Assembly: GCA_016790695.1 (NCBI GenBank)
Contig: JAEUOS010000063.1
Location: forward strand, 1 to 64,000
DNA: 64,000 nt
Source: Burkholderiales bacterium
Lineage (GTDB): Bacteria; Pseudomonadota; Gammaproteobacteria; Burkholderiales; JAEUOS01
Reading direction: 5' to 3'
Shown: in pieces, positions 23,669 through 30,015 of the stretch
Numbering within the stretch: position 1 is the first letter of the stretch
Layout of the letters: every line of letters begins with the position of its first letter
Made by a program: the position numbers and the translations under genes
Notes under the pieces: model-generated
The model's database searches: none
What the model was told of the DNA's origin: nothing
The model's input: the letters and a program-made list of their open reading frames with translations, nothing else

Positions 23669-24454
23669 TCAGCCGCGCCCGCCCATCGCCTTGGAGACGC
23701 GCGCCGCCGCCGCGCGCACCAGGGGCGTCCATTGCTCGGGTTTCTGGCGGTCCGCCGGCGCGGACAGGGACAGCGCCGCGATGGTCGCGCCGGTGTCGTC
23801 GGTCACGGCGGCGGCGATGCACCCGACCCCCTGCTCGGCCTCCTCGCGGTCGCGCGCGAAGCCGAGCCGGCGCACCTCGGCGAGCTCGGCCGCCAGCGCC
23901 GCCAGCGTGGTCGTGCTGTTCGGCGTGCGCGCCGCGAGCCCGGTGCGCGACGCGTAGTCGGCCACCGCCTCGGCGCCCTCCTGCGCCAGGAACAGCTTGC
24001 CGGCGGCGGTGATGTGCAGGGGGGCGCGCGCGCCGACGGTCTGCACCACCCGCATCATCGAGCGGTTCTCCGCGGTGCGCTCGACATAGAGGATCTCGTC
24101 GCCCTGACGCACCGACAGGTTGACCGTCTCGCCGGTGGCGCGGGCGAGCTCGCGCATCGCCGGCAGCGCCGCTTCGCGCACCGACAGGCGCGCGCGCACC
24201 GCGTTGCCGAGTTCGAGGAAGCGCATGCCGAGCCGATAGCCGCCGGTGGCGCTGCGGTCGGCGAAGCCGCCCTGCACCATCGCCGCGAGGATGCGGTGCG
24301 CGGTCGACGGATGCAGGCCGGTCGCGTGCGCCAGCGCCGTCAGGCTCAGCGCCTCGTCGCTGGACGCCAGCGCGTCGATCAGATGCAGCATGCGGTCGAC
24401 GACCTGGATCGAGGTCGTGCGGCCCGCGCCGGCTGCCGTCGCGTTTTTCACCAT
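23669..24454 (-). CDS. IclR-family transcriptional regulator
   Basis: 261 residues from the ATG giving MVKNATAAG. An N-terminal winged helix (IQVVDRMLHLIDALASSDEALSLTALAHATGLHPSTAHRIL; about residues 15 to 75) and a C-terminal IclR ligand-binding domain (GETVNLSVRQGDEILYVER; HITAAGKLFLA; about 85 to 255) are both complete. It is divergent from uspA and immediately upstream of the methyltransferase gene, which is its most likely partner or target. IclR proteins usually sense small organic acids or aromatic compounds. Confidence 0.9.
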   Translation of the reverse strand: MVKNATAAGAGRTTSIQVVDRMLHLIDALASSDEALSLTALAHATGLHPSTAHRILAAMVQGGFADRSATGGYRLGMRFLELGNAVRARLSVREAALPAMRELARATGETVNLSVRQGDEILYVERTAENRSMMRVVQTVGARAPLHITAAGKLFLAQEGAEAVADYASRTGLAARTPNSTTTLAALAAELAEVRRLGFARDREEAEQGVGCIAAAVTDDTGATIAALSLSAPADRQKPEQWTPLVRAAAARVSKAMGGRG

Positions 24455-24526
24455 GCGGGAAATTCTCTCACACCGCGTTCGCCACCGGCGCGCGCGGGCG
24501 CCCGCGCCCGTGCTTCTTGCGCCGGT

Positions 24527-24540
24527 TTGATTTCGATCAA
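24527..24540. promoter_or_regulatory. FNR/Anr box upstream of uspA
   Basis: TTGATTTCGATCAA is a perfect match to the FNR-family consensus TTGAT-N4-ATCAA. Its centre is about 74 bases upstream of the uspA ATG. If it acts as a class II site (centre near -41.5), transcription would start near 24575. It is also about 80 bases from the iclR start and could act on both genes. Confidence 0.75.
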
Positions 24541-24607
24541 CCGCGCGCGCGCCGCCGATGCGAAGCTTCGCTGCGGCCATCGCTGGGCCGTGAACCGGAG
24601 TTCGACC

Positions 24608-25441
24608 ATGACCTACAAGACCATCGCCGTCTGGCTCGACCAGAAGCGCAACGCGCCCGCCGAGGCCGCGATCGCGCTCGCACGCGAGTGCGGCGCCCAT
24701 CTGACCGGGCTCACCCATGTGGACGTGGTGCGCCTGCCGCCGCACGTGCGCGCGCTGATGGGCGAGGAGGTCGCGCGCGAGCAGCTGCGGCGCGCGCAGG
24801 CCGACGCGGCCGCCTGCGGCGCGGCGTTCGAGGCGCTGGCGCGGCGCGAGGGCATCGACAGCCTCGAAGTGCGCCAGCTCGCCGGGGATCCGGTGCAGGG
24901 GCTCGCCACCAGCGCGCGCTACGCGGACCTGGTGATCATGGGGCAGACCGATGCCGACCTGGCCGACGGCCCCGAGCAGCGGGACTTTCCGGACCACGCG
25001 ATCCTCGCGACCGGGCGCCCGACGCTGCTGATTCCCTACGCCGGCAGCTATCCGGTGATCGGCGAGCATGCGGTCGTCGCCTGGAACGCCACGCGCGAGT
25101 CGACGCGCGCGGTCACCGACGCGCTGCCGCTGCTGAAGCGCGCGAAGAAGGTCACCGTCATCGTCGGCGACGCCAAGCCCGGGGCCGGGGGCCACGGGCA
25201 GTCGCCGGGCGCCGACATCGCGCTGTACCTGGCGCGCCACGGCGTGCGCGTCGAGGTCTCGCAGGAGCGCACCGCCGGCATCGACGTCGGCTCGCTGCTG
25301 CTCTCCCGCGTCTCCGATCTCGGCGCCGACCTGCTGGTCATGGGCGGCTATGGCCACTCGCGCATGCGCGAACTGGTCCTGGGCGGGGTGACGCGCACCA
25401 TCCTGCGCGAAATGACCGTGCCCGTGATGATGTCGCACTAG
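24608..25441 (+). CDS. Universal stress protein, tandem UspA domains
   Basis: 277 residues from an ATG, long enough for two Usp folds in tandem. The first runs from YKTIAVWLDQ to PTLLIPYAG; the second from HAVVAWNATRESTRAVTDALPLL to VPVMMSH. The second domain keeps the ATP-binding pattern GYGHSRMRELVLGGVT. Family members are induced by stress and oxygen limitation. The FNR/Anr-type site in its upstream region supports low-oxygen induction here, an inference. An 8-bp GC stem (25477-25498) follows the stop and may end its transcript. Confidence 0.92.
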   Translation: MTYKTIAVWLDQKRNAPAEAAIALARECGAHLTGLTHVDVVRLPPHVRALMGEEVAREQLRRAQADAAACGAAFEALARREGIDSLEVRQLAGDPVQGLATSARYADLVIMGQTDADLADGPEQRDFPDHAILATGRPTLLIPYAGSYPVIGEHAVVAWNATRESTRAVTDALPLLKRAKKVTVIVGDAKPGAGGHGQSPGADIALYLARHGVRVEVSQERTAGIDVGSLLLSRVSDLGADLLVMGGYGHSRMRELVLGGVTRTILREMTVPVMMSH

Positions 25442-28702: not shown

Positions 28703-29893
28703 TCAGGCCTGGTTCGACGCGAGCTGGTCGTCGCTCGCCGAGCTGACCAGCGCGGGCCGTCCGACGATCAGCGGGTCGACCGGGCCGATCGCCTCGAGGT
28801 TGCGCCGGGCGTAGGCGAGGCGGTTGAGCAGATAGCGCAGCGCGTTCAGGCGCGCGCGCTTCTTGCAGTCGGACTTGATCACCGTCCACGGCGCGTCCGA
28901 GGTGTCGCAGTGGACGAACATGGTCTCCTTGGCGCGCGTGTAGTCGTCCCACTTGTCGAGGGAGGCCATGTCGATCGGCGAGAGCTTCCATTGCTTGAGC
29001 GGGTGCGCCTGGCGCTCCTTGAAGCGGCGGCGCTGCTCCTCGCGGCTGACCGAGAACCAGAACTTGAACAGGTGCACGCCGGAGCGCACGAGCTGGCGCT
29101 CGAACTCCGGGGTCTGGCGCAGGAATTCCTCGTACTCCGCCTGCGAGCAGAAGTCCATCACGCGCTCGACGCCCGAGCGGTTGTACCAGCTGCGGTCGAA
29201 CAGCACGATCTCGCCGCGCGTCGGCAGGTGCTCGATGTAGCGCTGGAAGTACCACTGGCCGCGCTCGATCTCGCTCGGCTTCTCCAGCGCGACCACGCGC
29301 GCGCCGCGCGGATTGAGGTGCTCCATGAAGCGCTTGATGGTGCCCCCCTTGCCGGCCGCGTCGCGGCCCTCGAACAGGATGACCACGCGCTGCCCGGTGT
29401 CCTTGACCCAGGCCTGCAGCTTGAGCAGTTCGACCTGCAGGCGGTACTTCTGCTTCTCGTAGCTCTTGCGCGACAGCAGGTTCTTGTACGGATACCTGCC
29501 CTCGCGCCAGCCCGGCGCGAGTTCGTTGTCCGGGTCGACGCCCTCGGGCCGGGTGTCGTCGGCCTGGAACAGCGCGCGCCGCAGCGCGCGCACCTCGTCG
29601 GGCGAGGCGCCGGCCACCAGCGCCTGCAGCCGGCGCATGGTCTCGCTGACCTCCTGGCCGTCGCGCCCGGCGCCGAGCAGATCGGCGACCACCATCTGCT
29701 GCACGGTGTGCGTGTTGCTCGTGCGGCGCGCGATGCGGTCGGCCTCGGCGGCGCGCGCGCCCGGGTGCGTCAGGGTGTCGCCGGCCTCGACCGGACGCGG
29801 TGCGCCGCGCGGGCGGCGCGCCGCGGCGCGGGCGACGGCGCCGTGCGACGGGGTGGAACGGGCGGACGGGGCGGGGCGGTTGTTCTTGGCCAT
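28703..29893 (-). CDS. ppk2: Polyphosphate kinase 2 (PPK2 family)
   Basis: Transfers phosphate between polyphosphate and nucleotides. 396 residues from the ATG opening MAKNNRPAPSA; a nearby GTG two codons upstream is possible. Walker A is FEGRDAAGKGGTIKRF, and the Walker B/lid region is LFDRSWYNRSGVERVM and SVSREEQRRRF, all diagnostic of PPK2. The kinase core begins near residue 145; the first 120 residues are Ala/Arg/Pro-rich and then helical. Whether it favours ADP, GDP or AMP is not decided by the motifs read here. Confidence 0.93.
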   Translation of the reverse strand: MAKNNRPAPSARSTPSHGAVARAAARRPRGAPRPVEAGDTLTHPGARAAEADRIARRTSNTHTVQQMVVADLLGAGRDGQEVSETMRRLQALVAGASPDEVRALRRALFQADDTRPEGVDPDNELAPGWREGRYPYKNLLSRKSYEKQKYRLQVELLKLQAWVKDTGQRVVILFEGRDAAGKGGTIKRFMEHLNPRGARVVALEKPSEIERGQWYFQRYIEHLPTRGEIVLFDRSWYNRSGVERVMDFCSQAEYEEFLRQTPEFERQLVRSGVHLFKFWFSVSREEQRRRFKERQAHPLKQWKLSPIDMASLDKWDDYTRAKETMFVHCDTSDAPWTVIKSDCKKRARLNALRYLLNRLAYARRNLEAIGPVDPLIVGRPALVSSASDDQLASNQA

Positions 29894-30015
29894 GACGAGC
29901 GCAACGACGACGGGACGTTGAAAGCTGCCAACTATGCGCCGGCGCGCATGTGCGGAGTTGACCCAGGTCAATCCGCGCGGCGGCGGTGGCGGCGCGCGGT
30001 GGCGGCCCGGCGCGG

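Follow-up and report, generated by a model that had tools for sequence, protein, structure and literature searches.

A probable FNR operator upstream of a tandem universal stress protein gene in a Burkholderiales bacterium

The 14-bp palindrome TTGATTTCGATCAA, which lies between two divergent genes of a Burkholderiales genome, is in all probability (we put it at roughly 87%, judging from sequence) an operator for the FNR-type regulator that this genome encodes, through which a tandem universal stress protein (Usp) gene would be activated at low oxygen. The observations behind this reading are the box itself, the cluster cysteines of the regulator, the genome-wide set of similar boxes and the fact that the box recurs ahead of Usp homologues in related genomes.

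The box, its gap and the second box of the window

The window, by which we mean the whole stretch of 64,000 nucleotides that was analysed (positions 1-64000 of contig C108; G+C content 72.5%, about 92% coding), carries the following features around the palindrome.

24527..24540, no strand assigned: perfect FNR-type box TTGATTTCGATCAA, an exact TTGAT-N4-ATCAA palindrome
24608..25441, + strand: tandem universal stress protein gene, 277 aa, PF00582 in two stretches, the most likely target
23669..24454, - strand: divergent IclR-type regulator gene, PF09339 and PF01614, control by the box not supported
24563..24568, + strand: predicted -10 element AAGCTT, a weak match, placed on the assumption that the box is centred at -41.5

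With its exact 4-base spacing, TTGAT-N4-ATCAA matches the window at a single place, 24527-24540, precisely where the first-pass annotation had reported an exact consensus site. The box stands in a 153-bp gap between the divergent iclR gene (- strand) and the tandem usp gene (+ strand), its centre preceding the usp ATG by 74.5 bp, a promoter distance suited to an FNR-type operator, and lying 79.5 bp from where iclR is predicted to start; the site is indeed upstream of usp as had been claimed. The description of the target as a tandem universal stress protein also holds, the Pfam Usp domain being found in two stretches, and the gene is assigned by this domain and not as an orthologue of E. coli uspA. 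When up to two mismatches were allowed, the window gave 12 matches, against a mean of 3.16 and a maximum of 8 in 100 shuffles. The neighbouring gene is classed as IclR-type because the IclR domains are present; none of the named IclR-family equivalogs (BhcR, PcaR, KdgR, IclR, AllR) scored above its NCBIfam cut-off, the best being BhcR with 179.3 bits against 350.

At low oxygen FNR is a [4Fe-4S] dimer that binds the palindrome, and from a site centred at -41.5 it recruits RNA polymerase. In the present case, the regulator holding its [4Fe-4S] cluster at low oxygen would dimerise, bind TTGAT-N4-ATCAA and activate the tandem usp gene, probably through a class II promoter that would place the beginning of the transcript near 24575, at a distance of 41.5 bp from the centre of the box, and the activation would stop once oxygen destroyed the cluster. 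The Usp may then aid survival under energy limitation, by analogy with the Anr-dependent Usps of Pseudomonas. A promoter and terminator scan of the usp-iclR gap returned neither a sigma-70-like pair nor a terminator match, and an Rfam search of 24300-24700 gave no match. It could be argued that FNR bound at the box represses usp at low oxygen, given that FNR is described as a dual regulator in passages of the Herbaspirillum work (PMC5934665) and that the gap holds no clear promoter to fix the geometry; we regard this as highly improbable, however, for the direct FNR-type targets of Usp type that are documented in the relevant parts of the literature are activated.

About 5 kb further on, a second box of the same type was located before a polyphosphate kinase gene.

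29958..29971, no strand assigned: second FNR-type box TTGACCCAGGTCAA, 71.5 bp before ppk2
28703..29893, - strand: polyphosphate kinase 2 gene (ppk2), TIGR03707 at 385.1 bits (cut-off 301.8) and PF03976

The ppk2 gene is likely a second FNR target in the window. A survey of PPK2 homologues (66 genomes with a match, 30 loci examined) revealed a box upstream of the match at nine loci, to which all seven of the closest belong, the query being one of these seven.

The FNR-type regulator and the genome-wide set of boxes

Oxygen-responsive control calls for an FNR-family regulator, for which the first-pass annotation had proposed a search of the genome, and such a regulator was found. A Crp-type HTH profile search gave seven matches above the Pfam cut-off, one of them truncated by a contig end, and the best match was the following.

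G000:C31:81050-81781: FNR-type regulator

Its N-terminus reads MNAPLSLSHLKTACSNCNLRELC (CX2CX5C), and with a further cysteine in SEVCIIP all four cluster cysteines are present. The protein passes the NCBIfam Fnr model NF008365 (249.3 bits, cut-off 228) and its best solved relatives, chains named 'FNR type regulator' (2.1e-58), can be aligned with it along 227 residues with the four cysteines matched. In the recognition helix, LETVSR aligns to VETISR of the solved FNR, so that the helix carries the E..SR residues, which we take to be those for TTGAT. None of the other six Crp-type HTH proteins reached the cut-off of any of the NCBIfam models listed. Around fnr on the same contig lie genes for HemN, a single-domain Usp, a COX1-family oxidase and a P-type ATPase, together a hemN-fnr-usp-cbb3 cluster, and boxes stand ahead of hemN, the single-domain usp, the COX1-family gene and the P-type ATPase cluster; the names ccoN to ccoI are our reading of gene order and sequence, the COX1-family gene being ccoN by position.

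The main rival to control by this FNR is that another Crp/Fnr regulator, for example one of the NO-sensing Dnr/NNR type, reads the identical box, in which case the signal would be NO or some other cue rather than oxygen. The sequence TTGAT-N4-ATCAA is common to Anr and Dnr according to passages of PMC5398030, and there are as many as seven Crp-type HTH matches above the cut-off to choose from, the truncated one included. Nevertheless, we consider this very unlikely, given that the protein on C31 alone passes the Fnr model while the other six remain under every NCBIfam cut-off listed, and that oxidase and haem genes are preceded by boxes. The COX1 family includes the haem-copper NO reductases, and the genome search gave just two COX1-family genes, which by sequence and neighbours are of the aa3 type and the cbb3 type; since the assembly is 90.9% complete, a gene may be missing from it.

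Returning to the FNR on C31, the assembly (G000; 5.49 Mb in 228 contigs, 90.9% complete) was searched for other boxes, a check that had been suggested together with the original site, and it yielded six exact TTGAT-N4-ATCAA sites, where base composition by itself would predict about 0.09. The relaxed pattern TTGAY-N4-RTCAA occurs 40 times, against four for the backwards control pattern, and the identical half-sites occur six times with a 3-base spacer (backwards control 4) and not at all with a 5-base spacer (backwards control 0). With genes predicted by our own codon-usage caller trained on the window, on whose calls the regulon list depends, 38 of the 40 relaxed sites are centred between predicted genes and 37 of those 38 face a predicted start; 35 of the 40 lie 40.5-185.5 bp ahead of one, and the two sites inside genes are on contigs C103 and C182. 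Taken as a whole, the distribution of boxes looks like a live operator set.

The idea that the palindrome is a chance match has in its favour that 14-bp sites do arise by chance in large genomes and that the strict box is missing at 13 of 29 Usp loci (see below). It is barely conceivable to us, and we rejected it on the spacing, reversed-pattern and shuffle controls, because spacers of 4, 3 and 5 bases give 40, 6 and 0 sites and 38 of the 40 are intergenic; the six exact sites against 0.09 expected and the recurrence before Usp homologues speak against it as well.

The genes flanking the boxes, part of which were covered by Pfam scans, include those for a second tandem Usp, CBS-domain proteins, a DUF294/CBS protein and a cyclopropane-synthase family protein, for two Glu/Leu-type dehydrogenases, alanine dehydrogenase, OmpW, phosphofructokinase and a pyruvate phosphate dikinase-type protein, for a Cpn60 chaperonin, Hsp20 and Clp-type and LonB-like ATPases, and for a Nuo51-type protein, formate-tetrahydrofolate ligase and PPK2. 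Eleven of the scanned box-flanking proteins had no Pfam match (two at 1e-3, nine at 1e-8). Additionally, exact boxes precede an arylmalonate decarboxylase-like gene and two predicted proteins devoid of Pfam matches (L001 2952-3779; L003 1782-2189; L004 2239-2907).

Recurrence before Usp homologues and the iclR side

At 29 loci of Usp homologues, the query included, the upstream 300 bp were surveyed; 28 of these loci come from a search of 399 genomes belonging to the order, 25 of which had a match, and the remaining one is a further paralogue. The query genome itself has a Usp paralogue, as follows.

L034 2207-3031 (G000:C134): Usp paralogue of tandem type (47% identity), preceded by the box TTGATGTGGGTCAA and transcribed divergently from a DUF6812 gene

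A strict box was present upstream at 16 of the 29 loci, the query counted, and was not found in the 300 bp upstream of the other 13, the rate in shuffled sequence being 0 to 0.004 per locus (500 dinucleotide shuffles each). In a genome of the same genus (G002), the usp-iclR arrangement is kept and the box TTGATGTTGATCAA sits at -73, the matching place. A member of the same family (G003) has the identical 14-mer before usp at -166, not near -74, together with a different predicted upstream neighbour. In another genome of the genus (G001), the Usp orthologue (66% identical) has a different gene upstream and keeps only 8 of the 10 consensus bases, and a Usp paralogue in the same genome has a strict box.

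All 14 genomes with a box before Usp appear among the FNR matches listed at E <= 1e-50 (compared by eye), and two of the 11 Usp genomes without such a box, G104 and G326, are absent among the matches listed and were scored as lacking FNR on that ground; across the 25 Usp genomes the association of box with FNR presence (14/0 versus 9/2) is not significant (Fisher p = 0.18). As a separate observation, one locus (L055, G381:C127) has a Usp homologue and an FNR gene on a single contig, about 330 bp apart.

For the iclR gene the picture is different. That the box might also affect the IclR unit, as the first-pass annotation had allowed, found no backing in a survey of 30 IclR loci (out of 161 genomes with a match; sites counted anywhere in each locus), in which only L075 and L076 carried a box, both being the usp-iclR gap itself, in the query and in its G002 orthologue. 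The possibility of a two-way box, from which FNR would control the divergent iclR as well, draws on the position of the box near the midpoint of the gap (79.5 bp from one start, 74.5 bp from the other) and on the divergent arrangement kept in G002. We judge it unlikely all the same, since the sites at 2 of 30 IclR loci both lie beside usp, and since the 14-mer of G003 stands before usp next to a predicted neighbour that is not IclR by its N-terminus, G003 also being absent among the IclR matches listed at 1e-60. Across the loci examined, then, the box is by position associated with usp rather than with iclR. Directly ahead of the iclR start, a block at 24454-24473, TGAGAGAATTTCCCGC, is kept in G002, and GAGAATTTC is present in two of eight IclR loci checked; the block is perhaps an IclR auto-operator or a promoter element.

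Of the oxygen-control reading as originally put forward, the core linking usp to FNR stands, upheld by the FNR gene, by the boxes at the cbb3 genes, hemN and two other usp genes, and by the recurrence in relatives, while the part concerning IclR gained no support. It is improbable, and offered here as speculation, that FNR may drive a low-oxygen survival programme reaching beyond respiration (boxes precede genes for three Usps, PPK2, CBS proteins, Hsp20, Cpn60 and Clp-type and LonB-like ATPases), with the box perhaps acting as a two-way switch that ties an IclR-type regulator to oxygen.

Comparison with known systems and meaning for the organism

Control of Usp genes by FNR, Anr or FnrL, tandem Usps included, is already known, and the present case is real but ordinary. 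In Pseudomonas aeruginosa, the tandem proteins UspL, UspM, UspN and UspO and the single-domain UspK are, in the parts of PMC8509486 that deal with them, Anr-dependent and linked to anaerobic survival; the likeness to our case lies in a two-domain Usp under an FNR-type oxygen sensor, here predicted from sequence and drawn without orthology. For Herbaspirillum seropedicae, passages of PMC5934665 describe uspA_1 and uspA_2 as directly co-activated by Fnr1 and Fnr3 (group III promoters) and place cbb3 oxidase genes near fnr1, so that usp targets of FNR, putative in our genome, and cbb3 genes near fnr are features of both; H. seropedicae has three Fnr proteins, whereas one protein passes the Fnr model here.

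Furthermore, the FnrL table of Rhodobacter capsulatus, among the portions of PMC4634722 bearing on this question, lists a UspA-domain protein and polyphosphate kinase 2 with TTGAY-N4-RTCAA sites, and uspA is given there as a direct target common to R. capsulatus, E. coli and R. sphaeroides; the R. capsulatus regulon would thus include both target types of our window, matched by type and not by orthology. In Dinoroseobacter shibae, FnrL directly activates Usp genes according to excerpts of PMC5398030; that organism also has three Dnr regulators, whereas none was identified among the Crp-type HTH matches of our genome. Sections of PMC3759415 and PMC9104464 report that the Usps of Burkholderia cenocepacia rise at low oxygen and that TTGATCTCGATCAA precedes its bd oxidase cluster, and FNR sites are discussed for Accumulibacter in part of PMC6446978.

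Existing knowledge of FNR or of Usp is unchanged by the finding. With an FNR that looks intact and a set of operators to go with it, part of the low-oxygen lifestyle of this bacterium becomes readable from its genome, and the comparison across relatives lends support to the view that, in this order, tandem Usp genes are widely under the control of FNR.
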